Source: a virus
Direction: 5' to 3' (one strand)
IMG/VR virus record: IMGVR_UViG_3300027851_000033
Span: 1 to 56,471 of that record
DNA: 56,471 nucleotides
This document shows, piece after piece, positions 1,424-17,503 of the stretch; within the stretch, counting starts at the first letter, position 1, and each line of letters opens with the position of its first letter. Under the pieces are notes generated by a model that made no database searches, was not told where the DNA came from, and saw only the letters and a list, made by a program, of their open reading frames with translations. The translations under genes and the position numbers were made by a program.

Positions 1424-4400
1424 TCAAGACCCTGCTACACGCTCCATGAATTCCTTCTCTACGGCTTGTTTTTTCTCTATCTGTGCTTTTGCCTTGGCGT
1501 TAAACTCGTCTCTATCTATACCTTTTTTCTGGAATTCACGCTTAAGCGCCGTGATATTTTTATCAATCTCCATCATCTTTGCCTGCGCCGCACGCTGAGC
1601 ATTAAGTCTCAGCACGTCAGGCGGATAGCTTCCGAGCTTGATCCCGACCGATGAGATGATTGACTGTGCCAAACTCTGCTCACGACCAAATGAATCAGTC
1701 TTCCCGCTTCCGGCATTGGAGATACCTGTCCATGCGTAAGTCCCAGGAAGGACAGCAATGTTCGGCGCGAACGCCTTGTAGAGGTAGTCGGTCAGCTTCG
1801 CTGCTTGTTCATAAGCGGTATCCGTTTCCAACGTAATGCTCTTGCCGGTAAATCCTTGCTTATTCAGCATCAGTTCTGCCATGAGCGCAAGTGGCCCGCC
1901 TGGTGTCATTGATGGGAGGATGGGCAACGCAGCGTGACTCTGACCAGCGTCAAATATATCGCCTACAGGTATCCAGCGCCGGATGTCCAAGAATACCGGT
2001 GATCCATTGGCATCATTCCATGGCATGCGTATCAGCTTGGGCGTAATACCCCAAATCCTACCAGCTTTTTCCTCCGGCAACAGTTTGCGTTCGTCGTCTT
2101 CATCGCCACCCGACAGCATGTAGCCAAGCGCGTTAATCGCTCCCGCCAGCAAACCCAGCTTAATTAGCTTCCACGGCTTCTTGGCTGCGATTTCCAGCAT
2201 CATCGGCGCTGCGCGATAAGTGAATGCAACGAACGGTAGCGCTGTGCTTCTCATCATCTGAACCCATGGTGCATTGATGTTGTAGTCGAGGAATGACTTA
2301 CGCGCCACCTTTCCAGCAACTTGGTCAGTCGCACCATCTTCCTTGGCCTTAAGCCAAGCCGCAAGACGGAAGACCTGATCCTCGGCTTCATAAAGATCAA
2401 TCATTGCGCGTGCCGTTTTGACGGTGATTTTTCCCGCTGCGCTTGGCTTAAGCGCATCCCATGCAGACGGGAAGCGCCCTTTGAGCGCCAACTGCAAAGC
2501 GGACATGACACCTACCTGGCCAGTCACATTACCCGCGATGCCAAGCTCTTTTCCCAGCGCATCTAATAATGGGCGCAGCTGCTCCTGCTGCAATTCCTTT
2601 GTTACCCATGTTCCGATAGAGCCGCCAGAATCACCGAAGCGTGCCAGCACCTCATCCGCCGCCGCGTCCTTGGAAGTCATCAGCCTGAGTGCCTTGAGGA
2701 CATGCCCAGCCGTCACATCATGCCAATCTGCCATGACAAAGTTCGCCATGACGTTGTTCATGTGGACAGCGGGGCTCAGGGCAGTTTTTGAAGCTTTCCA
2801 TGCGCGATGAATCGCGGCGTAGGTTTCGCCCAAGGGTTGATAGCGGAAGCCGATCGTCTGCCGCACATCATTCCAGATAGGTGCCGGTAGATAGCGGCCA
2901 GCCAGCGCCCCGTATCGCTTGACCTTCGTGCCTGGGACAACTACATCAGGCACTTTCACCCACTCACCTGTTTTGTATGTGTCACGCATGCGATCAGATG
3001 CCTCGACAATCTTGCCATCAATTGCTTCGCCGTCTATCTTGGCGTAATTCTGCCCAAGCCATTGCAGGTATTTACCCGTTTCAACATCGTGGATCATGCC
3101 GTGCAAGGTCTTGGCTATCGCGTAGCGCGCCTCATCAATCTCACCCATCAACTCGCGCTCTTGCTTGGTGAAGTCGCGCCAGACAATGAGATTATTTCCC
3201 TTGGTATCGCGGACTTCCCATGTTCCCATCTGATCCCATGCGCCATAACGCGCGGGGATGGCTTCTCCTGCTGGCCAGTAAGCCACCTCCAGCAGTCTTC
3301 CCTTGCTCTTGTCGCTCATGCCGGGAATCGCCGCCGTGCCTTCGCCGGAAGATGCCCGGCGTTCCAGCCGGATGAATCGCTCACCCTTCAACTGTTTGTC
3401 AGCCTTGCCTTGCTGTGTTTTGCGATTCCACCACTCTGGCGAACCGTTCTTGATCTTCGCCATATCCACGGCATCCGTCATCCCGCGACCTTTGTATTGA
3501 TCGCCCAGGACAGCAATAGCGCGTTTCCTTGCTGCCGTCTCGCCGCCGGTCAATTCTGCCGTATGCTTAGCATAGCTACGGTGCAGATAGGCGAATCGAT
3601 TGCGCTTGTAGGCTTCCTCATCCAATTGGCCGAGGCGTACCGCTTCTTTCGATAGGCCGTCAATCATTTTCTCAACTTCAGCCAGCGTCTTGATTGACTC
3701 GGGCGGCAACTGTTCCATGAACCAGTCGGAAGACTGCGGATTATCCGTGTTCATCCATTCATAGGCGATACGACTTTCTGCCCTGGTCAGGGTAGATAAC
3801 TTCTCAAGCAATGTGCCAGCCGCACGAAGCTGACGTTTCTGCCGCCCCTGAACGATAGCGCGCTGATCTATAACAGCCTCGGGGATGCCGTAATCAGACA
3901 CCATGCCAGCCTTGATGGTTTCCGGCGTCCAGCGATCCAGCAAGAAACCGGCCTTGTTGTAAGCCGCCATAGTCAGCTTGTCAATCTGTGCGGCCTGCAT
4001 GACACCTTTTATTAAAACATCGAAAGGACGTGGTGTGCCTGCTTTCGTTTGAATAATAGTCTCGGCACGCTGTTCAGAGGTCGGCGCTAGTGATACAGCG
4101 TGGGACAGGCGCGTTCCCGTTGATATGCTGCCACCCTTACCGGAACGCACCCATTCGCGTGCCGTGCCCAGCAAGTCGGCCACATATAAATCCGCCTGCT
4201 GCTGTTCGCTCAACCCGGCATTCAGCCATTGATCCAGCTTGGCCGCCAGTAATTTTGCCCCGGCCTTGTTCAACCAGTTGCGCACTACCTGCACCACCTT
4301 GCGCCAGCCGCGTAGCTTGGCGAGTTCAACATCTGGAATGTCCGCCAGCACTTCTTCAACTGCGTCCAGGTTTGACTTGAGTCCACGTGCATCACGCATC

Positions 4401-7400
4401 TGTATCGCGGCCTTGCGCACTTTGGCATTCATCAATAACACATGCTGGAGCGCAGAATCAAGCTCCTTGCCTACCGCGCCACGCAGTCCGTAGTGTGTTA
4501 TTTCATGAGTTGCCAGCACATGCTCGGCGCGCGCTTCGTCGGCCATGCCGGAGGCAAACAGGTAAATCTCGCCCTCGTGGGTTGCGCCCTCTACGTCATT
4601 CCAAGCGTCTGACTTCTTGATGAAGTCGCGCAATGCCTTCTGCGTCTGGTCATTGGTGGATAGATCAGCGGGCGATGCGAAGACATGCACCCGTGGCAGG
4701 TTCTTGAAGCCCTTGGAGACACGATCAACCACAGCATGCAGGTCGCGCAAGGCCATACCACGACCAGTTGATTTTGTATCAACGGCCTTGCCACGATAGG
4801 CGGTCATGAACAACGGATAAGCGGCCTCCGGCATGTAGTTCTTCGCCGTCAATCCCCGCGTTGCAAACAGCTCTGCCTTCTTCAGCATCAGCAGAGCTTC
4901 GGCATCTGTCTTTGCTTCGAGCGAATTGGCCAGCCGATGCAGCCCCATTGAACGAAGCAGGCTTTGCAATACTGCCGCGAACCGCTTCCATCCCTTCAGA
5001 GATTCACCTGTCTGCGCAATCTTCGCCAGCGCTTCGTCGATTGAGATATAGTGGATGTCGTTATCTGATAGGCTGTAGTCTGATTTCAGGTCGGCGATCA
5101 GGTCGATATTCTTGCTTCGCCACGCTGCCGCCATCAATCTCACGCGAGGATTAGCGTCATGAATCTCACCAAGCGCCGCATCAAGTGCCGAACCAAAGAA
5201 TCCCCGAAGGCCAAAATGAGCAAGTTCATGGAAGGTGACTTCCCTTACATCTTCCGCGCTTCGGATTCCACCAGCCACGAGGTAGAGCGTCCCCTTATAC
5301 ATAGCACCACGGGTATCACTGGGCGCATCGAAGGGAAGGTCAGACGGGCGCCAGACTACCTTTACATCCGGCGCATTTCCAAGGCCACCAAGTATATTAT
5401 CCGCCTCTTGACCCACGCTGGCGATTGAAACACCCCCCGCCAGCGGGTTGTCGGCACGCGATAGTCTCGGTGTATCTGTACTGTTATCCTGCTGATCCGT
5501 ATTTTCATCGGATGCCTGGTCTGCCATCATCGCCGCTTCCAGCGCATCAGCCTCGCTGATCCTGTTCGACAGTTCCTGAGCAAACTGGAATTTCGCATCC
5601 AGCCGATCCACCAGCGCCGCACGCTTGGCCTTGGCGTCCTCGATCCGCTGTTTGAGTTCAGATGGTTTGCGTGCCAGCGCTGCAAGCGTGTTGGTCGCAC
5701 GCATCGAGATACCTACGGGGTCATCATTGACATCGCGCACAAGGACATGCGCTTCCTCACCCAATGTCATACCCAGTTGCGAGCGGTATTCAGTCACTTT
5801 GTCATCAAAGTCACGCACGATCTTCCCGAAAAACTCAATAGGAAAACTGGAGATTTCACCGATCTTGAAGCGGCCATCTTTGCCGTGTGCAGCGCTCTCC
5901 TTGAATTTTGCCAACAGAGCTTCAGCCCACTCCTTGCGCTTGTCGAAAACCTTGTCCCCGGCTCTGGCCTTAAAGTTTTCTCCGGAAAGATCAACAACCT
6001 TTTTGGCCATCTTTTCAGCCGCAGGCAGTTGTCTATCCGCCGAAGCAATCCACTCGCCAGCCAGATCATAATCATGCCGCAACCGAGACCGGGTTTCTTC
6101 ATGGGCGCGGAACAGTCGCTGATACTTCGATATGTCTGCCTTGATGCCTGCCAATTGGATAGCACGCGGGTCGCCTGCCGTCATTGCGGTAGCAATCTGG
6201 AACTGGCTGACATCACTCAAGTCATCTATTGAGCGGACAGACGTATCACCCGATAGCGCCTGGTCAATAAACTGCTGTTTGCTGGCTAGCATTTGCCACA
6301 TCACCGCGTCATAGCTCCCCTTGGTCGAGAAAGCATAAATCTCCACCAGCGGGTTCTTGTTGCCCTGACGGATGATACGGCCTTCGCGCTGCTCCAAATC
6401 GGCTGGATACCATGGCGTATCAAGATGGTGCAAAGCGATCAATCGTTGTTGAGCATTAACCCCTGTGCCCATATTCTTGCTACTACCTACCAGAATGCGC
6501 ACCCGCCCGGCATTCACGTCCTTGAACAGCTTCAGTTTTGCTGTTGATTTCTTATGGTCGCCCATGAATGCAACCTGCTTGGCAGGAATGCCCGCATCAC
6601 GCAAGCGCTTTTCCATCCAGGCGCGGGCATTGAACCCACGATTTGCCGTCACACCAGCACCAAAGCCCAAGTCGGAAAACACCATCTGCGAACCACCCTT
6701 GTCCGGTTCCATCTGGCCATCCTTGCCCATGTATTCATTATTGGCCGTGCGCCGATAAACCTCGATCACGCCATCTATCATCTTGTTCAGCTTGGAATCC
6801 GGATCGGATGGCAGCGACGGATCAACAAACCGCATATCAATCGCCGCCAGTCGGCCATCGCCGATGATGCGAATGATCGGGTCTGGATTGTTTGGCTCGC
6901 CCTGGCTTGGCTTCCATGCCCGCGACTCTTCCAGCCGAAGAGCCAAAGCCTCCTTGTAGGCAGAATAATCTTCCGTTTGCGGCGTCACCTCCAGGCTACG
7001 CGAGCCGTTCTTGACCTTTGGCCGCTTGTCGCCCAACATCACCGCCAGATGGTCTGCCGTCAGTACATCGGAGAATTCACGAAACATCTGCGTCATTTCA
7101 GGCACATTCACGAACTTGGTGAACCGCGTCACCTGTGAGTATTTTCCAGAAGCATCCGCCTCGATCTCGGTATTTTCCTGGCCAAACATCGACGCCCAGG
7201 CATCGAAGTCCTGTAACCCTCTATCCTCTAGCGCTTGGGGTGACATGAATCGCTGCACAGAATAAAGCTCTGCCAGTGTGTTGGTAATCGGTGTGCCTGA
7301 CATCATGACCAATGAGCGCCCCGGCTTCTTCTGCTCCAGCCATCGGGTTTTCATCCACAAGTCAAACGCGCGGTCGGAGCCTGAAGAATCAATCCCCTTG

Positions 7401-10400
7401 ACCTGACGCAGGGTGGTGAAGGCCAGCTTGCGGAATTCATGCGCCTCATCAACATAAATTTGATCCACGCCCAACTGGTCAAAGCGCACATTCTTGTCCT
7501 TGCCGTCGGATGACATGGCCGCTTCCAGTTTTTGCTCCATCTTCTCGATGCGGTTTTGGATGTCGCGCACCTTGGGGTCGCGGCTACGCTGGCCCTCTTC
7601 GCCGCCCGCCTCTTCCAGTGCGGCACGCAGGTAATCCAGTTGCTCGGTAATCATCTTTTCCTTGAACTCCGGATCAAGGTCAAGCAACTTGAAAGCTGAA
7701 TGGGTAATGATGACGCCATCTACATCTGATAGCGCAACGCGCGACACGAAGCGGCGGCGGTTGTCGGTATGGAACTGCTTTTCATCAGCCACCATCAGTT
7801 TCGCAGTCGGATAAAGTTGCAGCCATTCCCGAGCAAACTGCTGGAGCATGTGGTTCGGCACTACCATCATAGGCTTCTTGACCAGACCAAGCCGCTTTTG
7901 CTCCATGGCAGAGATCACCGCTGCCCACGTTTTTCCAGCACCAACAGAGTGCGCCAGATAGGTGTTGCCCGACTGGATGATGCGCCATGCACCCCGTTTC
8001 ACATGGTCAAATACATTGATGGTCGACGTTTTCCCCGGCAAGGTCAGGTGGCGGCCATCGAAAGATCGGGAGACCGTGGTATTGAACTTGTCGTTATAGA
8101 CGCGTACCAACTCGTCAGTCCGTTGCCCATCTGTCCACAACCAGTCAGCAAAGGCTTCGCGCATCTGCGCCAGTTTCTGATTGGCCGCTTCGGTTGAGGC
8201 CGCATCGAATACGGACTTTTTATCTACCCCGCTGCCTTCGGTGCGCGTGATCCTGATCGGATTGCCTGACAGCGCATGCTGCAAGATTTCAGCAGCATTG
8301 CGATCTAGCGTGCCCCAGTCCGAAGTTGCAGCAGCCGAACTGTATCCCGACTTCGCCTCTACCGTCCATTGCCCGGTACGCTCGTTATAAGTAACCTTGG
8401 CCGTTATGCCTGCCTTTTCCTTGAGAAACTTCTCATAGTCGGATTCTGGAATCCAGTTCATGCCTATGGCTGCCGTAATATCCGATGGCGGCACTGGCGC
8501 AGGCTGCGCATTGATTAACGCCTCAATGTTGCGCTCATAGCGACGGTCAGTCTTGACAGATTCCTGCGCTTCTTTGAGTTTCTTCTTGACGTTGCCAGAC
8601 AGGTATTCGTCAGCCATCTGCCAACCGGCGGAAGGCGATTCATAAACCGCCGTGCCTAGCATTGCGATGGCTTCCTGCTCATCAATTCCCAGTCGTTCAG
8701 CGATCAACGGAATATCCACCTTGCCGGTATCGTTCAGCACCGACAGCAGCGCATCGTGCGGCGTCTCGATCCGTGGCGACGAAGGTTTGTTCAGGATGCG
8801 CGATGACAGCCACGGACTGGGCGTTATCTCTCCCGTCTCTTCATTTAGGACTTCCAGCGACTCAACCAGCGTTGAATCCGGATCATCGCTGATCTTGTTG
8901 CGCAAGTCGAATCGGCGCCATGTGACGGTATCCTCAATAGTTTCCCCGGTATCCTCATCCTGTTTCTTGGTGATGCGCTCAAAGGCCTTGTTTTGGAGAA
9001 GGTTGCCGTGCTTTTTAGTGAAGTCACGGTATGTCTTTTGCAACGCCTTCAGCGAGTCCTCCCATGGCCCATCATTCAACTGGTCGTAGTGGGATTGGAG
9101 CAGCGTATCGCGCAAGCGCACATAATCCTTGAGCAGCGCCACAGTCTTTTCGTTTTTACCGGCATCGGCACGCACCCCAACGCCGCCCTCGCGCTGCATC
9201 AGAATTCCTGCATCAGACAAGTAGTAGTTGCCTTCCTTCTGCGCTTTTGGGTTGAAGTCGATCTCTCGCACCTGCGCCGCTTTGGCGGCCGTTCCTGTTG
9301 CCTGGTAAATGTCTTTTGGCAGATTCTCTACCGCCGCATCGAATTGCGCCTCGATGTCGCCCTCCTTCGGCAGCACGGTGTATTCATCCTTCCCGTACAT
9401 CGACCCCTTCAGGCTATGTGTACCCAGCACCATTTCGGGGTGAGCGGCGAAGTATTCGTTGATGGTAGCCTGGCCTTCCGGCGTTTCGATCTGTTGCACG
9501 CCTATCCATGGCTGACGCGTAGTATTATTGCCATCAGTCGTTGCGCCCAAACGACCTCCGGGCGAGGATTGAAACTTACGCAGGAACAGCACATCGGTTA
9601 CGACCTCTGTGCCAGCGTTCTTCATGAATGCTGTTTGTGGTAAACGGATCGCGCCAATCAACTCGGCACGATCCGAAAGATACTTACGCGCCTTGTCGCC
9701 CTGTTTGTCCATGGTATAGCGGCTGGTCACATAGACCATCAGTCCGCCCGGCTTCACCTTGTCGATAGACTTGGCGAAGAAATAGTCATGGAGCGAAAAT
9801 GCCAGCCTCTTGTAACGTGGATCAGACAGAATCGGGATATTTGCAAACGGCGGGTTGCCAATCGCCACATCATAGAAGTTGTCCGGCAAGGCTGAGTCAA
9901 CGAAGCTCTCGACAGCAATGCGCTCATCCGGGAATAGTTGTTTGAGGATAGCGCCGGTGATGTTATCAAACTCGATACCGGTATATACAGAGTTGGTTGC
10001 CATGGCTGGCGTCATCAAGCCTGGGAATATGCCAATCCCCGCACCAGGTTCCAGAATAGCCCCGCCCTTGAATCCCATGCGATCCATGGCCTTCCACATG
10101 GATTGCACCACGGCGCGGCTGGTGTAATGCGCGTATTGCGTGGAACGCTCTGCCGTCGCCATCTCGTCTGCGGTCAACAGCCCGCGCACTCGCTCCCGTA
10201 GTTCTTTCCACTGCTTATCGAGTTCCCATGGACGAGTCGAAAAAATCTGGTTACGGATGCCGGAGGCACCCCAGCCGATGAACTTGGCCAAGATGGCTTG
10301 CTCGTCCCTGGTCGCCTGGCGCCCTTCGGCTTCGAGCTTCTTGATTAGTTCTACCGCGTCGACATTCTGTCGCGCCTTGGTCAGCCAGCCACCTTCATAA

Positions 10401-13400
10401 GTCAGATCGGCATCGCTGAACTGGTAGTTCAGTCCTGATTTTGCGGGGATGTCTCGTCCGGCGGGAATTCCAGTTGCTCGGCCAGCACGATTTCGCGTGC
10501 CGCCTGTATCGCGCTGTTCATTATCCCCGCTTTCTCCAGCGGGTCGTTGGTCTTTCCGTGCCCCTGGTTCGCTGCTATCTGGTGCGCCAAAGAGGTCGTC
10601 AGTGAATTGATTTCCTCCGCCCTGTCCTTGACGAACTCGTTGAGTTCCCCGTCTTCCTTGAGATCCTTGAGCAGTTCCGGAGCCTTGTTCTTGAGCGCTG
10701 CCAGAACCAGTTGTTCCATATTGTCCACTTGAGTCACTCCTTGACTTATTCTCAGTTTCAGTATATCCAGAATCTGATTTTTCTGCTACACTATCGCTGG
10801 AGGTTGATGATATGAAAGTTCCTGACAAATTCCCTGATGGATGCAAGTTCGGAATGGACTTGACCGATGACGACGGTGTTGAGTTGTTGTATGTCGAATT
10901 CCCAGGCGGAGAGAGATTCGTACTCAACGAAAAGTCACCTTGGGATGGCATGGAACCTACAACGTGGTGGCCGTTGCGCTGGTCAAAGATTTCCGAGGCT
11001 GACTTTTTAGAAGCCGCCAAGGCCGCCGCGTAAAGTTCTTTCTGCACCGAGTCTGATTCCGCTTTCTCTGGTGCTCCCTGCTGCGCGGCGCGGGAGATTT
11101 CATACAGCTTATGCCCTGATCCAGCCTTGGCGGCCATCATCGCCGGGATGTTGATCTGGATTTCGGCAACAGTTCCGTTCGGCATTGCGACATTGACAAG
11201 CACGTCCATGTAGCCGTCTGGTGATTTCTCCACAACCAGATTTGACGCATTCAGAGAAATGTCTGTTTTGTTCTTGACGCGCTGGATGGTGAATTCCTTG
11301 CCTATCTCATTCAACACAACCTTCGCGTCATCGTAGGAATTAACGACGATTGTCGAACGTATCAGGTCGCGCATCTTTGTGCTGTCAAACTTGTTATCAT
11401 TCACCAGCTTCTCGACTGACCGCTCGATTCGCTTTACAGGGGCCAGCATTTGACCGATAGCGCCTGTGCGCTTTGAAATGTCGATTATCTTTTGATCGAA
11501 AGCAACCTTGGCCTCTTCCGCAAGCTTGAGCATCGGACGAAGAATCCCGTAGCCCCTCTCCCGATCTTCTGGACTAACATGCAAGACTGGCGCTGACTCA
11601 CCATCAAAGAATTGGTCAATCATCCTTTTGGCTTTTGAAAGTATCTCTTCGCCAATGAATTTCGACTCATCCTGCGGAACGTAGTTATCTCGCTTCATGT
11701 CATACGGGCGGCCATCTATCATCGCCGTCTTGCCAGCACCGACTTTTGGTTGCGAGTCAAACAATCCACCCTGATCCGCTTTCGGTTTGCGCGCTGAAAA
11801 CAGATCGCCTTGCGGTGCAGCGTCGGTATTATCTAGTGCCTTGAGCGCAGCCTTTCGATAAGTCGCATTGTCGATCTTGTTCCAAACGGATTTGAATTCC
11901 GGGATTTTCTTGAGCGCGTTCTTGACGTGCGCCATCAACACCTTCATGTCATGGCCGACTTCGGCAATCCCTACCTCAAATAGCTTCACCAATGTCGGCA
12001 TCAGCCCTGGCGTATCCTCGGGTATCACCCGCGCTACGTTCGCATGATCCCGGACAATTGCCCCAAGATCGGCCAAGGCTTCATTCCATTGCTGGTTGAT
12101 CGCCTCGCGCCGCGCATCTACCGACACGCCTTCGGATCGCTTGACGCTAGGAAATTGATTAACCTCATCAAGTAGTTTTTTAATAGGCGCATCAAACTGG
12201 ATTACTTTTACTGGCTCATTCAAGGCCAGCGCCGCAACCCATTGATGATGTCCGTCCAATACGTGTCCATCAGATGAAGCCAGGACAGAACGATCAACCC
12301 CGTCCCGCACTTCCTTCCACGCCGCCGCCTTCTTTCTTGAAAACTCAGCCTGGGTCGGCTTAAGGTCAGCCGCTGGAATATCCAGGGTACGGCTTTCTAT
12401 GCCCCGCCCCTTGAGGAATTGAGTCAGCGCCCCGCGATGCTCGCTCTTAACCTGCGGCATTTCCGCGCGCGGAACGCCCAGCGTGCCGCTATCAGGTGGG
12501 AAAGCTACCCATTCGTTGTTGGGGTTTCCTTCGGCGGTTTCATTGCGGCTATTGCCTGCTTGATTGCCCTGCGCATCTTGGGGTTGGCTTCGATCTTCTT
12601 GAGTAACCCCATTGTTTTCGGCATCGGTACTACGGGTTGTTGGTTCGCCATTGACGGCCCTCCTCGCTACTTCCATTAAATCACTTTTGGCAGGCGTTGT
12701 CTTGCCCCCGAAAATATCCTCTTGCCCTGGATTCCCTGCCGCTGTCAGCGCATCCAAATATGACTGGATGAATTCAGCAATTCGGCGCGGGCTGCGCGCG
12801 GCTTCATTCAACAGCATCAAAATTTGCTTTGACTCTGGCGATAGCTTGTCGCCAAAAATTCCGGCCTGTGCCAGCGCATCTTCGACTGAAACACCCTTCT
12901 TCTTCAGTTCTGATAATTCCTCTACCGCCGCCATCAGGTCGGGCGTAATATCCGCATCATGCAGTGCCCCTTCGCCAATGGCCTCGCGTGCCTTGGCGAT
13001 GTTTGGTGCAACACGCAGTAGCGCCTTGCTCACATTACGCAAGTCGTCGTCGACGCTCTCCACCATGCGCAACAGGACGGGGGAATCCCCATAGGCTTTA
13101 GCCAGTACCGCATTGCGGATGCGCGTGTATCCTGTCTGCGAAAGCTGCCCGGACGAATCAATCAGCCCGGACTGCTCGGTCACTGGCAACTTGGCCATGA
13201 AGCGCCGCACGAAGGGCCGCGACGTACCTGACATGAAGTCGCCCTGCTCATCAGGATTCAGGTCATCCAAGCTGTCCATCTGCATTGCATCCGACTTGGC
13301 TTGTTCGCTGGGACTCATGCGCGCCACCGTTGAGGCGTTGGCTTGACGCGCGAACTCTGCTCGATTTACCGGGGTTTGCCTGATACGCACCAGCACAGGC

Positions 13401-15271
13401 TTTTGCATGGCGTCGACGGATTCAGGCGCAATACCGAAACGACTGGCGTTGTCCTTGATAAACTGCTTGTAGTCGCTGGCCTTTTGTCCGTTCGCCTGAT
13501 AAACACGTTTGAGCGCAATCGTGCGGGCGTTGCCTGATTCGACCAGTCCATCAGCGCCGACAATGGGCGCACCTGTCGCTACATCACCCGATTCACCCAA
13601 GCGTGCCGGATCAAGTCTGCCGACAATCTGCTGCACCTGCATTTCAGAGGCATGGCGCTCACGCTCGCGTGGCTGCAACTCCGTTGGGTACGTTTGTACA
13701 GGGCGTAGATTCTCATCGTGTGATGTCGTTAAATCACCGGCCTCCATTAAGGCATACTGCCCATTCAGCCGAGCCCCCGTCTCCGTTGAGAATGAAGTCT
13801 CTGCGCCCGGTGCCGCCTTTGGCCAAGACTCAGTAATGTGCTCGCGCTCATTGGTCAGTGCGTCTATCTCAGCCTGCGGCATATCGGGGGCGGATACGAG
13901 GCTGGTATCAATCTCATTCACCCGATCCAGAGCCGTCAGACTCTTTGGTGTGTAGAGCGCTTTGTCTGATTCTGTGGGCTGTACTGCACTGATGGGCTGC
14001 TCAGGCGCACCATAAATATCATCGGCAGAAACTTGTTCGCCAGTGGATTGATCGCCTGTCTCATTAGCGCCCACATTCTGATTATTCCTGTAGCCCCTGA
14101 CAATACCGCCACTGCCACCAAACACCCCGCCAGTGGCTGCCCCCACCGCCATGCCTTCCATGGCTTGAGACAAAACGCCATCAGTGGCATCTATCGCTGG
14201 GTCGATATACTTTTTCTTGGCTAGATTGGTGATATAGGCTTCCCCGCCAGACTGAGGAAACTCCTGAATAGCTTCTTCCTTTGACCCGCGAATGAATCCC
14301 TTTGCCCCCTCGATTAGCGCACCTTTCCCCCCGCTTGCCTTGACTGCGCGCGCGGCCCCGCCTAATGCCCCACCACCAGTAAGAATGCCAAAGCCGCCAG
14401 TAGAAATTGCTGTTCTTACCGCAACATCTTCAGCCGCTTCCTTGGCCAATCTGTTGCGCGCGGCCTCCATGTCGCCACCCGCTTCATCCGTATATTTAGC
14501 GAACAGCGGCGATGTTTCCGCCAGTTGATCAAACGGTATCTGCTCGATCTCAGAACGTATTTGGGCCGAGCTCTGTAACCCAGCCAATGCGCCTTCAGCG
14601 CCGCCGTATCCAATAGCTGTTGGAGCCAATGCCAGCGCACGATCAGTCAGTGCGCGGGTGATCCCTTGCTGTGCAATAGCCTGTCTGATTGAGTTGCCGC
14701 CAATCGGAGAAGCAGCGCCTGAGATGATTTTTCCGGCAACGCCTGGAATAACTGTACCACCGACCTTCGCAATACCACTGGCAACTGCACCACCAACAGG
14801 AGCAGTAACTACCATGCCAGGTAATGACCGCAATGCTTTTTGCCCTAGCGACGGTAGAAAATCCCCATCAAGATTAGGCACAACCCCGTCGAATAACTGC
14901 TTCTGATCCAGAGCCTGACCGCGCTCTGACATCGAATCGCTATATTCCTTGCCAATCTTTTGCTGGAATGTCCGCATATCGCGGCCAAATTCTTGCGCAT
15001 TGGGCGAGTCTGTTTTTTCGCCATAGAACTCAATGCCTGCCCCAATCGCATCACCAACACCGGCATGGACTCCGCCCATGATGGCCTTGCCACTATCTTT
15101 GATGGCATCCGTCCATGAGCGATTATCTTGTTCTACATGATCGCTTTTGGCATCATCCTGAACTCCTGTTTGCTGCTGCGCAAAAGACAGAATTTCATCT
15201 TCACTTGCACCGTCAGGCGCTGTAACCTCAAACCGTTTTCCATCCGGGGAAGTGATTTCAAACTTAGCCAT
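1424..15271 (-). CDS. Giant polyvalent protein (DarB-like; MTase-helicase, ParB-like, zincin domains)
   Basis: 4615 residues, the size of the giant virion protein of Bcep22-like phages. Such proteins are thought to be injected with the DNA and to counter host defences. Visible regions: N-terminal FEITSPDGKRFEV module (1-35); Gly/Ala-rich hydrophobic stretch (about 70-400); DdrB/ParB-like region (about 520-660, SGNARTIALKRVY); second ParB-like region with SDGHVLDGHHQW (about 1000); RelA/SpoT-like fold (about 1270-1400, RSTIVV and VAEIQINIPAM); low-complexity linker (about 1413-1615); adenine methyltransferase with LEPGAGIGIF and NPPF (about 1745-1810); Snf2-type helicase with HSVGAGKT (about 2444), VDEAHEF (about 2610), SGTPITNT and QREGRIIRQG (about 2965); two zincin-like motifs HELAHFG (about 3350) and HEITHYG (about 3590); and a C-terminal large region with a membrane-like segment. 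It starts 50 bases after the preceding gene. A 17-base repeat lies upstream. Confidence 0.9.
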   Translation of the reverse strand: MAKFEITSPDGKRFEVTAPDGASEDEILSFAQQQTGVQDDAKSDHVEQDNRSWTDAIKDSGKAIMGGVHAGVGDAIGAGIEFYGEKTDSPNAQEFGRDMRTFQQKIGKEYSDSMSERGQALDQKQLFDGVVPNLDGDFLPSLGQKALRSLPGMVVTAPVGGAVASGIAKVGGTVIPGVAGKIISGAASPIGGNSIRQAIAQQGITRALTDRALALAPTAIGYGGAEGALAGLQSSAQIRSEIEQIPFDQLAETSPLFAKYTDEAGGDMEAARNRLAKEAAEDVAVRTAISTGGFGILTGGGALGGAARAVKASGGKGALIEGAKGFIRGSKEEAIQEFPQSGGEAYITNLAKKKYIDPAIDATDGVLSQAMEGMAVGAATGGVFGGSGGIVRGYRNNQNVGANETGDQSTGEQVSADDIYGAPEQPISAVQPTESDKALYTPKSLTALDRVNEIDTSLVSAPDMPQAEIDALTNEREHITESWPKAAPGAETSFSTETGARLNGQYALMEAGDLTTSHDENLRPVQTYPTELQPRERERHASEMQVQQIVGRLDPARLGESGDVATGAPIVGADGLVESGNARTIALKRVYQANGQKASDYKQFIKDNASRFGIAPESVDAMQKPVLVRIRQTPVNRAEFARQANASTVARMSPSEQAKSDAMQMDSLDDLNPDEQGDFMSGTSRPFVRRFMAKLPVTEQSGLIDSSGQLSQTGYTRIRNAVLAKAYGDSPVLLRMVESVDDDLRNVSKALLRVAPNIAKAREAIGEGALHDADITPDLMAAVEELSELKKKGVSVEDALAQAGIFGDKLSPESKQILMLLNEAARSPRRIAEFIQSYLDALTAAGNPGQEDIFGGKTTPAKSDLMEVARRAVNGEPTTRSTDAENNGVTQEDRSQPQDAQGNQAGNSRNETAEGNPNNEWVAFPPDSGTLGVPRAEMPQVKSEHRGALTQFLKGRGIESRTLDIPAADLKPTQAEFSRKKAAAWKEVRDGVDRSVLASSDGHVLDGHHQWVAALALNEPVKVIQFDAPIKKLLDEVNQFPSVKRSEGVSVDARREAINQQWNEALADLGAIVRDHANVARVIPEDTPGLMPTLVKLFEVGIAEVGHDMKVLMAHVKNALKKIPEFKSVWNKIDNATYRKAALKALDNTDAAPQGDLFSARKPKADQGGLFDSQPKVGAGKTAMIDGRPYDMKRDNYVPQDESKFIGEEILSKAKRMIDQFFDGESAPVLHVSPEDRERGYGILRPMLKLAEEAKVAFDQKIIDISKRTGAIGQMLAPVKRIERSVEKLVNDNKFDSTKMRDLIRSTIVVNSYDDAKVVLNEIGKEFTIQRVKNKTDISLNASNLVVEKSPDGYMDVLVNVAMPNGTVAEIQINIPAMMAAKAGSGHKLYEISRAAQQGAPEKAESDSVQKELYAAALAASKKSASEIFDQRNGHHVVGSMPSQGDFSLSTNLSPPGNSTYNNSTPSSSVKSIPNLHPSGNLSGTFISSTSSDSVAEKSDSGYTETENKSRSDSSGQYGTTGSGSAQEQGSGTAQGSQGRRGTQRVRQGQGGGNQFTDDLFGAPDSSEPGARKDQRPAGESGDNEQRDTGGTRNRAGRATGIPAGRDIPAKSGLNYQFSDADLTYEGGWLTKARQNVDAVELIKKLEAEGRQATRDEQAILAKFIGWGASGIRNQIFSTRPWELDKQWKELRERVRGLLTADEMATAERSTQYAHYTSRAVVQSMWKAMDRMGFKGGAILEPGAGIGIFPGLMTPAMATNSVYTGIEFDNITGAILKQLFPDERIAVESFVDSALPDNFYDVAIGNPPFANIPILSDPRYKRLAFSLHDYFFAKSIDKVKPGGLMVYVTSRYTMDKQGDKARKYLSDRAELIGAIRLPQTAFMKNAGTEVVTDVLFLRKFQSSPGGRLGATTDGNNTTRQPWIGVQQIETPEGQATINEYFAAHPEMVLGTHSLKGSMYGKDEYTVLPKEGDIEAQFDAAVENLPKDIYQATGTAAKAAQVREIDFNPKAQKEGNYYLSDAGILMQREGGVGVRADAGKNEKTVALLKDYVRLRDTLLQSHYDQLNDGPWEDSLKALQKTYRDFTKKHGNLLQNKAFERITKKQDEDTGETIEDTVTWRRFDLRNKISDDPDSTLVESLEVLNEETGEITPSPWLSSRILNKPSSPRIETPHDALLSVLNDTGKVDIPLIAERLGIDEQEAIAMLGTAVYESPSAGWQMADEYLSGNVKKKLKEAQESVKTDRRYERNIEALINAQPAPVPPSDITAAIGMNWIPESDYEKFLKEKAGITAKVTYNERTGQWTVEAKSGYSSAAATSDWGTLDRNAAEILQHALSGNPIRITRTEGSGVDKKSVFDAASTEAANQKLAQMREAFADWLWTDGQRTDELVRVYNDKFNTTVSRSFDGRHLTLPGKTSTINVFDHVKRGAWRIIQSGNTYLAHSVGAGKTWAAVISAMEQKRLGLVKKPMMVVPNHMLQQFAREWLQLYPTAKLMVADEKQFHTDNRRRFVSRVALSDVDGVIITHSAFKLLDLDPEFKEKMITEQLDYLRAALEEAGGEEGQRSRDPKVRDIQNRIEKMEQKLEAAMSSDGKDKNVRFDQLGVDQIYVDEAHEFRKLAFTTLRQVKGIDSSGSDRAFDLWMKTRWLEQKKPGRSLVMMSGTPITNTLAELYSVQRFMSPQALEDRGLQDFDAWASMFGQENTEIEADASGKYSQVTRFTKFVNVPEMTQMFREFSDVLTADHLAVMLGDKRPKVKNGSRSLEVTPQTEDYSAYKEALALRLEESRAWKPSQGEPNNPDPIIRIIGDGRLAAIDMRFVDPSLPSDPDSKLNKMIDGVIEVYRRTANNEYMGKDGQMEPDKGGSQMVFSDLGFGAGVTANRGFNARAWMEKRLRDAGIPAKQVAFMGDHKKSTAKLKLFKDVNAGRVRILVGSSKNMGTGVNAQQRLIALHHLDTPWYPADLEQREGRIIRQGNKNPLVEIYAFSTKGSYDAVMWQMLASKQQFIDQALSGDTSVRSIDDLSDVSQFQIATAMTAGDPRAIQLAGIKADISKYQRLFRAHEETRSRLRHDYDLAGEWIASADRQLPAAEKMAKKVVDLSGENFKARAGDKVFDKRKEWAEALLAKFKESAAHGKDGRFKIGEISSFPIEFFGKIVRDFDDKVTEYRSQLGMTLGEEAHVLVRDVNDDPVGISMRATNTLAALARKPSELKQRIEDAKAKRAALVDRLDAKFQFAQELSNRISEADALEAAMMADQASDENTDQQDNSTDTPRLSRADNPLAGGVSIASVGQEADNILGGLGNAPDVKVVWRPSDLPFDAPSDTRGAMYKGTLYLVAGGIRSAEDVREVTFHELAHFGLRGFFGSALDAALGEIHDANPRVRLMAAAWRSKNIDLIADLKSDYSLSDNDIHYISIDEALAKIAQTGESLKGWKRFAAVLQSLLRSMGLHRLANSLEAKTDAEALLMLKKAELFATRGLTAKNYMPEAAYPLFMTAYRGKAVDTKSTGRGMALRDLHAVVDRVSKGFKNLPRVHVFASPADLSTNDQTQKALRDFIKKSDAWNDVEGATHEGEIYLFASGMADEARAEHVLATHEITHYGLRGAVGKELDSALQHVLLMNAKVRKAAIQMRDARGLKSNLDAVEEVLADIPDVELAKLRGWRKVVQVVRNWLNKAGAKLLAAKLDQWLNAGLSEQQQADLYVADLLGTAREWVRSGKGGSISTGTRLSHAVSLAPTSEQRAETIIQTKAGTPRPFDVLIKGVMQAAQIDKLTMAAYNKAGFLLDRWTPETIKAGMVSDYGIPEAVIDQRAIVQGRQKRQLRAAGTLLEKLSTLTRAESRIAYEWMNTDNPQSSDWFMEQLPPESIKTLAEVEKMIDGLSKEAVRLGQLDEEAYKRNRFAYLHRSYAKHTAELTGGETAARKRAIAVLGDQYKGRGMTDAVDMAKIKNGSPEWWNRKTQQGKADKQLKGERFIRLERRASSGEGTAAIPGMSDKSKGRLLEVAYWPAGEAIPARYGAWDQMGTWEVRDTKGNNLIVWRDFTKQERELMGEIDEARYAIAKTLHGMIHDVETGKYLQWLGQNYAKIDGEAIDGKIVEASDRMRDTYKTGEWVKVPDVVVPGTKVKRYGALAGRYLPAPIWNDVRQTIGFRYQPLGETYAAIHRAWKASKTALSPAVHMNNVMANFVMADWHDVTAGHVLKALRLMTSKDAAADEVLARFGDSGGSIGTWVTKELQQEQLRPLLDALGKELGIAGNVTGQVGVMSALQLALKGRFPSAWDALKPSAAGKITVKTARAMIDLYEAEDQVFRLAAWLKAKEDGATDQVAGKVARKSFLDYNINAPWVQMMRSTALPFVAFTYRAAPMMLEIAAKKPWKLIKLGLLAGAINALGYMLSGGDEDDERKLLPEEKAGRIWGITPKLIRMPWNDANGSPVFLDIRRWIPVGDIFDAGQSHAALPILPSMTPGGPLALMAELMLNKQGFTGKSITLETDTAYEQAAKLTDYLYKAFAPNIAVLPGTYAWTGISNAGSGKTDSFGREQSLAQSIISSVGIKLGSYPPDVLRLNAQRAAQAKMMEIDKNITALKREFQKKGIDRDEFNAKAKAQIEKKQAVEKEFMERVAGS
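10429..10719 (-). CDS. Nested small acidic protein inside the giant ORF
   Basis: 96 residues from ATG (MEQLVLAALKNKAPELL), read in another frame of the same strand as the giant gene. The composition is balanced and looks helical (AHQIAANQGHGKTNDPLEKA, IQAAREIVLAEQLEFPPDE). The giant frame here encodes a Ser/Gly/Gln/Arg-rich run without visible domain character. Its 3' end overlaps the codons for GRDIPAKSGLNYQF, where the conserved methyltransferase part of the giant protein begins. I infer this was once a separate gene upstream of a methyltransferase-helicase gene. Function unknown. A GTG start 18 bases further upstream is possible. Confidence 0.6.
   Translation of the reverse strand: MEQLVLAALKNKAPELLKDLKEDGELNEFVKDRAEEINSLTTSLAHQIAANQGHGKTNDPLEKAGIMNSAIQAAREIVLAEQLEFPPDETSPQNQD
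10812..11033 (+). CDS. Nested antisense small protein inside the giant ORF
   Basis: 73 residues starting MKVPDKFPDGCKFG, opposite to the giant gene. A near-perfect Shine-Dalgarno GGAGG lies 8 bases before the ATG. The protein looks like small phage/plasmid proteins with a KFPxGCxF start, a YVEFPGGERFVL centre and an ISEADFLEAAKAA end. On the other strand the giant ORF has only a Ser/Thr/Asn/Gly-rich linker. It is divergent from the nested gene at 10429-10719, with 92 bases between starts. Function unknown. The good ribosome binding site and amino-acid pattern make a chance shadow unlikely. Confidence 0.6.
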   Translation: MKVPDKFPDGCKFGMDLTDDDGVELLYVEFPGGERFVLNEKSPWDGMEPTTWWPLRWSKISEADFLEAAKAAA

Positions 15272-16783: not shown

Positions 16784-17503
16784 TTAAATCCTCTCGTAAA
16801 CTTCGCTCTCTGATTTAATGGCAGAGCGAATCGTGTTAACTGAAAACATGAATGCCTTATGCTTTTCTGGATGACGATCCCTTAGCCAGCCAATCCGCCC
16901 ATCTGCTTCTCGCATGAATGCCGTACAGTTCCAGCAATCCATGGATGTGTCATGCTTTACTACTGAGTACCATTCCGGGATAGGCTCACCGCAAGAAGAC
17001 AGGAACTGATTAACGTCCTCATCCGACCAGTCTGCAATAGGCGAGATGTAGCGAATGCCGTCCACCATTGAATCAATAATATGTTGATTGCCGATGGCGT
17101 CCGCTTTCCTTGTTCCATGGAAAACAGTCTTTGCGCCCATGGCTTTTGTCACCTGGCTCATGGGCTTCCATAAATTATTTTCGCAGCAAGTAACAAATGG
17201 CTGCAACTTTAAGTCATTGCCCTTGCGCATATAGTGACCAAACCCGCTATGCATCACAGGTAGGACATCAACAGGCAATCCATGCGATTGAATCCATGCT
17301 GGCTGATCAGACTTGATGATATGGAATTCAGGCACGCTTGCAGCGAGATCATGGATAAACTCATCCACCTCTGGCAACTTTGCCTCAGTATCCACGTGCA
17401 AAATCTTGAACGCTCCCCAGTGCTCGCGCATAAGGTACAAGCAGGCAAGCGAGTCCTTTCCGCCAGAGAACCATAAAACCGATTTATTTGTGACGTTTAT
17501 CAT
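16784..17503 (-). CDS. PAPS-reductase-like (adenine nucleotide alpha hydrolase) protein
   Basis: 239 residues with the PP-loop motif FSGGKDSLACLYL at residues 12-24, followed by ILHVDTEAKLPEVDEFI, the usual second strand of this fold. The C-terminal part has several Cys residues (CCENN, SMDCWNCTAF) and the ISPIADWSDEDVNQFL segment typical of phosphoadenosine phosphosulfate reductase relatives. Phage members are of uncertain role: sulfur metabolism, nucleic-acid thiolation and base modification have all been suggested for the family. Only 2 bases separate it from the gene at 15321-16781 and it overlaps the gene at 17500-18978 by 4 bases, so it is cotranscribed with virion genes. Confidence 0.8.
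   Translation of the reverse strand: MINVTNKSVLWFSGGKDSLACLYLMREHWGAFKILHVDTEAKLPEVDEFIHDLAASVPEFHIIKSDQPAWIQSHGLPVDVLPVMHSGFGHYMRKGNDLKLQPFVTCCENNLWKPMSQVTKAMGAKTVFHGTRKADAIGNQHIIDSMVDGIRYISPIADWSDEDVNQFLSSCGEPIPEWYSVVKHDTSMDCWNCTAFMREADGRIGWLRDRHPEKHKAFMFSVNTIRSAIKSESEVYERI

Follow-up and report, generated by a model that had tools for sequence, protein, structure and literature searches.

Two small open reading frames (ORFs) that lie in the linker of a giant phage gene, one on the giant's own strand and one opposite to it, are very probably genuine and expressed genes that share their DNA with the gene of a giant polyvalent virion protein; selection and conserved signals were found for both, from which we infer their expression. 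Judged by sequence, the same-strand gene, which is TnpV-like, is kept by dozens of distantly related phages and the opposite-strand gene, sgA, by about twenty. The nested arrangement is ancient and widespread and is no local accident. We consider probable the explanation as a whole, in which the nested genes are real, each would be a partner of its adjoining module, sgA would provide immunity, and fusion would have enclosed both within the giant.

The giant gene and its two nested ORFs

The DNA analyzed (the window) is the whole of IMG/VR record IMGVR_UViG_3300027851_000033 (56 kb; 56,471 nt), which also codes for integrase, head, portal, and RecE/RecT genes. The best phage family for its giant ORF is phrog_10089, DarB-like antirestriction. 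Residues 1413-1615 of the giant, encoded by 10429-11033, form a Ser/Gly/Gln-rich linker, in which the preliminary description had placed a 96-aa ORF and a 73-aa ORF with a GGAGG site; its coordinates, lengths and account of the linker are correct. The features of the region are as follows.

1424..15271, minus strand: giant polyvalent DarB-like ORF (4615 aa), its frame uninterrupted over both nested genes
13379..13777, minus strand: ddrB-like ParB domain of the giant (domain match)
11036..11539, minus strand: RelA/SpoT-type (toxSAS, Tas1-like) domain of the giant (domain HMM and phmmer to Tas1; PF04607 below cut-off)
10812..11033, plus strand: sgA, antisense nested gene (73 aa, ATG at 10812), candidate immunity protein
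10799..10803, plus strand: GGAGG Shine-Dalgarno site of sgA
10784..10792, plus strand: extended -10 (TGC TACACT) of sgA, the hexamer starting 25 nt before the ATG
10760..10765, minus strand: TATACT, a -10-like hexamer 5' of the TnpV-like gene
10737..10742, minus strand: AAGGAG Shine-Dalgarno site of the TnpV-like gene
10429..10728, minus strand: TnpV-like nested gene in the giant's +1 frame (99 aa from GTG 10728)
9836..10432, minus strand: LPD36 and N-terminal methylase region of the giant, beginning where the TnpV-like gene stops
9659..9886, minus strand: Eco57I-type adenine methylase match in the giant
7187..7975, minus strand: SNF2-related helicase match in the giant

The last two matches are domain matches. 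The giant thus joins disparate domains in one polypeptide, together with an N-terminal GWGAS motif region, as do polyvalent LPD36-methylase-SNF2 (DarB-like) proteins; the domain name LPD36 is taken from Iyer et al. 2017 (PMC5512222). A giant of the same kind, JC1 gp69, is present in virions, as detected by mass spectrometry with 51 unique peptides (PMC9144972), and injection of polyvalent giants into the host has been proposed (PMC5512222). A phosphoadenosine phosphosulfate (PAPS) reductase-like gene lies at 16784-17503 within the virion gene block of the window, and BcepIL02 also has a PAPS reductase-like gene, located a few genes upstream of its giant.

Besides GTG 10728, the TnpV-like ORF has alternative starts at GTG 10737 (102 aa) and ATG 10719 (96 aa); the best Shine-Dalgarno site, AAGGAG, belongs to GTG 10728. 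The TATACT hexamer is found also in three other loci (L002, L017, and L019). The 102-aa ORF exceeds the gathering score of Pfam TnpV (PF14198; 28.7 vs 27 bits, E 1.4e-6), and AlphaFold confidently predicts a protein of four helices (pLDDT 82.3, pTM 0.65), for which a fold search retrieved generic helical bundles only. No match was obtained by tblastn of the 102-aa protein against phages and plasmids, by a DNA-level search of phages, or by an NCBIfam search; relatives came from IMG/VR and profile searches.

Conservation of the TnpV-like gene and selection on the overlapping frames

A survey of 96 LPD36-methylase loci from viral contigs, phages, plasmids, and genomes found an HMM-supported nested TnpV-like gene in 85. 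Among the 71 non-redundant fused methylase-helicase giants whose frame is open for >250 aa upstream of LPD36, 66 contain a TnpV-like gene that has HMM support and occupies the same +1 frame, mostly directly upstream of the LPD36-methylase, and 70 contain a +1-frame ORF of at least 70 aa before LPD36. The median ORF before LPD36 is 112 aa in the +1 frame vs 14 in the +2 frame, and the +1 median falls to 63 aa in 1,050-bp stretches taken elsewhere in these giants. At a few of these loci the +1 ORF next to LPD36 overlies a PBECR-like domain and is noise; the true nested gene lies farther upstream there. Four of the giants outside those 66 (L026, L087, L095, and L098) have a different small family (MIPPLQ.VRLRSI.RWL...) at the same +1 nested place before LPD36, which looks unrelated to the TnpV-like family. 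Shine-Dalgarno sites precede 51% of nested ATGs, which were picked by profile and not by their Shine-Dalgarno sites, vs 5% of control ATGs.

The TnpV-like family is loosely united: the window-family profile picks up 59 of the 81 sequences at first pass, and the iterated HMM also matches some reversed sequences, weakly (E about 1e-3 to 1e-4). Most other nested members score under the Pfam cut-off, and the protein of an Acaryochloris plasmid is above it at 29.5 bits. The region upstream in P1 DarB was checked and contains no TnpV-like gene. Only the giant is annotated over the nested gene in the records of BcepIL02, Y7, PEp14, SopranoGao, VvAW1, Atu_ph08, Mwe-JY07, and POI1126; for Bcep22-like, Erwinia, Klebsiella, and Vibrio phages, the public records annotate the giant and omit the nested gene. 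The deposited annotation of Pseudomonas phage Itty13 (L024) shows hypothetical proteins facing the DarB-like giant ORF from the other strand, and hence the giant itself is apparently unannotated there.

In a +1 overlap, position 3 of the small gene is position 1 of the giant, and position 3 of the giant is position 2 of the small gene. Over 20 disjoint pairs (1,898 codons), drawn like the loci counted below from relatives that are not independent of one another, differences at small-gene positions 3/1/2 numbered 432/280/256 (432 vs 256, p 2e-11), position 3 exceeding position 2 in 18 of the 20 pairs. The flanking giant sequence has the usual excess at the giant's third position. The small frame is therefore the constrained one within the overlap, and purifying selection acts on a nested frame inside a gene that stays open.

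That the nested ORFs are no genes at all, and stand open by chance through the giant's codon usage and low-complexity composition, is very improbable. The openness of the small frame was rejected as evidence, being weak: given the giant's residues it is not improbable at single loci, and these GC-rich regions often contain antisense ORFs of >70 aa, both as a chance origin would have it. The case for real genes accordingly rests on homology, conserved signals, and the substitution pattern, not on ORF length. The Pfam TnpV match, the position-specific substitutions, the Shine-Dalgarno enrichment, the fixed -10 distance of sgA described below, and the confidently predicted folds all argue against chance, as does the survival of both ORFs in a Silanimonas relic in which the giant is broken. 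The suggestion of the preliminary description that both ORFs are real and perhaps still made is strongly supported by these sequence comparisons and structural models and by the nested homologues.

We also weighed, as distinctly improbable, that the giant is untranslated through the linker, with two large proteins, the small genes between them, and an open linker that is incidental. The linker is indeed of low complexity with drifting amino acids, and a continuous giant frame is lacking in the Silanimonas relic and in phage PBC5. However, the no-stop chance of the giant frame has a geometric mean P of 0.021 per nested gene under giant codon usage, and its openness over 66 nested genes corresponds to a summed log10 P of about -111 by the same measure. 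For the window alone P is 0.0009 by giant codon usage and 0.04 by a conservative permutation of codons within the gene; shuffling codons within the small gene is a weak test (0.04 in the window, 0.2-0.7 elsewhere), and the strong openness result needs giant codon usage. At each viral locus found, moreover, a single unbroken giant frame encloses the small genes, whose phase relative to it is constant. Spacers between sgA and the TnpV-like gene measure 74, 83, 89, 104, and 134 nt in intact giants, all 2 mod 3, so that they change by multiples of 3 only in every phage with an intact giant, whereas the spacer in the Silanimonas relic is 100 nt (1 mod 3); this is what translation of the giant across the spacer would lead one to expect. 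Over the nested genes, selection keeps the giant's frame free of stops while the encoded amino acids drift. Conservation of the linker amino acids but not of the nested frames, which the preliminary description had named as evidence against its reading, was not found; the nested frames are conserved and the linker drifts.

The TnpV-like frame might alternatively be read through programmed frameshifting from the upstream half, yielding a shorter TnpV-ended product beside the full giant, although we regard this as improbable. In Sinorhizobium phage PBC5 (L123, 1903-2479), orf33, the upstream half, ends in the TnpV-like frame, and the methylase frame begins inside the TnpV-like sequence; phrog_938 holds such a C-terminus, seemingly inherited from PBC5 orf33. 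PBC5 is nevertheless a single old record that differs from its continuous relatives by one frameshift, which could be a natural variant or a sequencing error, and both the Shine-Dalgarno sites of the nested ATGs and the free-standing TnpV-like gene of the Acaryochloris plasmid speak against frameshifting. Under the reading that we prefer, the giant's mRNA would most likely serve also for translation of the TnpV-like protein, initiated at a Shine-Dalgarno site of its own, and the protein would be the small partner of the LPD36-methylase-SNF2 module, a proposal whose chances we judge to be evenly balanced; it is a candidate partner or inhibitor of the methylase-helicase.

sgA and the toxSAS domain

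Relatives sharing 35-83% identity with sgA lie at 12 loci of IMG/VR and on one contig from Silanimonas. A TAnAnT hexamer precedes the ATG of sgA at a fixed distance, beginning 25 nt away, in 15 of the 16 loci vs 1.35 in shuffles, and the extended -10 is present in 12 of the 16 vs 0.9 in shuffles, a signal that is visible by comparison of loci only; a consensus promoter scan returned no classical sigma-70 site. The openness of the sgA frame in the giant was rejected as evidence because it is uninformative: third positions of the two genes face each other, and sgA is poor in Tyr/His/Gln. Of 104 changes at sgA third positions, 9 are nonsynonymous for sgA (27% expected) and 16 for the giant (20% expected).

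AlphaFold confidently predicts five strands and one helix for sgA (pLDDT 85.3, pTM 0.72). The fold search gave no convincing match (Aichivirus 2A at Z 5.9 over 63 residues, rmsd 3.0), and no match was found among PDB sequences. Neither sequence nor fold likeness to Tis1 or any antitoxin was detected; Tis1 is not among the fold matches listed, an absence that carries no weight.

In the window, the toxSAS domain of the giant ends 3 bp from the sgA stop codon. The domain is homologous to the solved toxSAS enzyme Tas1 (6OX6_A; phmmer E 1.6e-6 over 118 residues), and its match to PF04607 (E 4.3e-4) scores 21 vs 27 bits, below the cut-off. Every locus with a strong toxSAS-domain match has sgA antisense at the end of the domain, and the strong domain was never seen without sgA; at one locus (L015) sgA was found there only through reading by eye. 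The diverged toxSAS domain of L032 lies elsewhere in the giant, far from the TnpV-like gene, and there too an sgA-like antisense ORF follows it. In L017 the domain is deleted, and sgA and its promoter are retained. Several loci (L004, L005, and L007-L013) have sgA and no adjoining methylase module. The presence of sgA with the domain wherever that is placed, and in loci without the methylase, indicates that sgA is tied to the toxSAS domain, as the TnpV-like gene is to the methylase.

From its placement and sequence, sgA is a candidate immunity protein of the toxin-like toxSAS domain, whose activity is itself predicted; we hold this assignment tentatively, at a little under an even chance. The protein would be made from its own extended -10 promoter and Shine-Dalgarno site and may keep the toxSAS domain harmless in the cell that builds the virions, and the injected giant would arrive in the next cell without sgA. 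It is possible, if rather doubtful, that sgA instead regulates the giant mRNA in antisense, or that it is an accessory protein with no relation to the toxSAS domain and is simply carried along next to it. Its transcription against the giant from a predicted promoter of its own and the lack of any antitoxin match are consistent with such roles, but sgA follows one enzyme domain wherever that domain sits. As its protein sequence is conserved and its predicted fold confident, an RNA alone is insufficient as an explanation.

Probable fusion history and relation to known systems

The Silanimonas contig NZ_JAPZSC010000013.1 (L021) carries the relic, in which the toxSAS domain is truncated and sgA and the TnpV-like gene are intact. 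By eye, the relic adjoins the C-terminal part of a restriction-type methyltransferase-like gene, and an integrase-like ORF lies on the same contig. Wide searches of the Silanimonas genome's class found sgA in this relic only, and TnpV in the relic and one prophage-like giant only. On the Acaryochloris plasmid, a separate annotated TnpV gene directly precedes the methylase-helicase, with an 8-bp overlap and in a different phase, which suggests an old operon neighbor that was enclosed by fusion.

The preliminary description had proposed that two large genes fused through an intergenic region that held both small genes. That the giant was carried through small genes stands; that the two came from one old intergenic region does not, each being tied to its adjoining module. 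The separate, intact halves with both small genes between them that this history called for were found in no genome, the nearest cases being the relic with its broken giant, the Acaryochloris TnpV gene, and PBC5. The best reading is that the small partner genes came in with their respective modules and that the giant frame was then extended through both, in which case the frame would have been carried through the nested genes during module fusion.

Nested +1 phage genes, polyvalent giants, and toxSAS partners are known already. The embedded spanin genes of lambda, Rz/Rz1 (PMC6139136), likewise comprise a small gene wholly nested in the +1 frame of a larger one, both conserved and usually overlooked by gene callers; here, in contrast, the enclosing gene encodes a giant virion effector, its nested product is TnpV-like, and the opposite strand adds another nested gene. 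The TnpV family (PF14198), which the window and Acaryochloris proteins match above the cut-off, comprises small helical proteins of mobile elements, whereas in phages the gene shares DNA with a polyvalent giant, in its +1 frame, and is no separate transposon gene. Polyvalent proteins of the DarB kind (Iyer et al. 2017, PMC5512222) share the ParB-like and RelA/SpoT domains and the LPD36-methylase-SNF2 dyad, and in that paper we found no mention of TnpV, gene overlap, the opposite strand, or an immunity protein. Tas1 is a type VI effector that makes (pp)pApp, and its structure has been determined together with the immunity protein Tis1 (6OX6; PMC11782079). Tas1-Tis1 and toxSAS modules resemble the present case in that a toxSAS enzyme is delivered to another cell and a small partner is encoded alongside, but here the partner, which has no detected Tis1 homology, is antisense within the effector's own frame, and its neutralizing role is a prediction. 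A limited literature search found no report of small genes nested in polyvalent giants.

These results add a conserved gene family that is absent from the annotation of well-studied phages (Bcep22-like, PEp14, SopranoGao, and VvAW1) and indicate that giant polyvalent genes can fuse straight across intact neighbor genes. We suggest, guardedly and as something that may well prove otherwise, that phages injecting toxic alarmone-synthetase domains shield the producer cell by an antisense immunity gene within the effector frame and that the methylase-helicase likewise has a nested partner, so that fused modules would carry their partners inside. Neutralization of the toxSAS domain by sgA, if it does occur, would explain how a phage can produce a toxin for injection while its factory cell stays unharmed.
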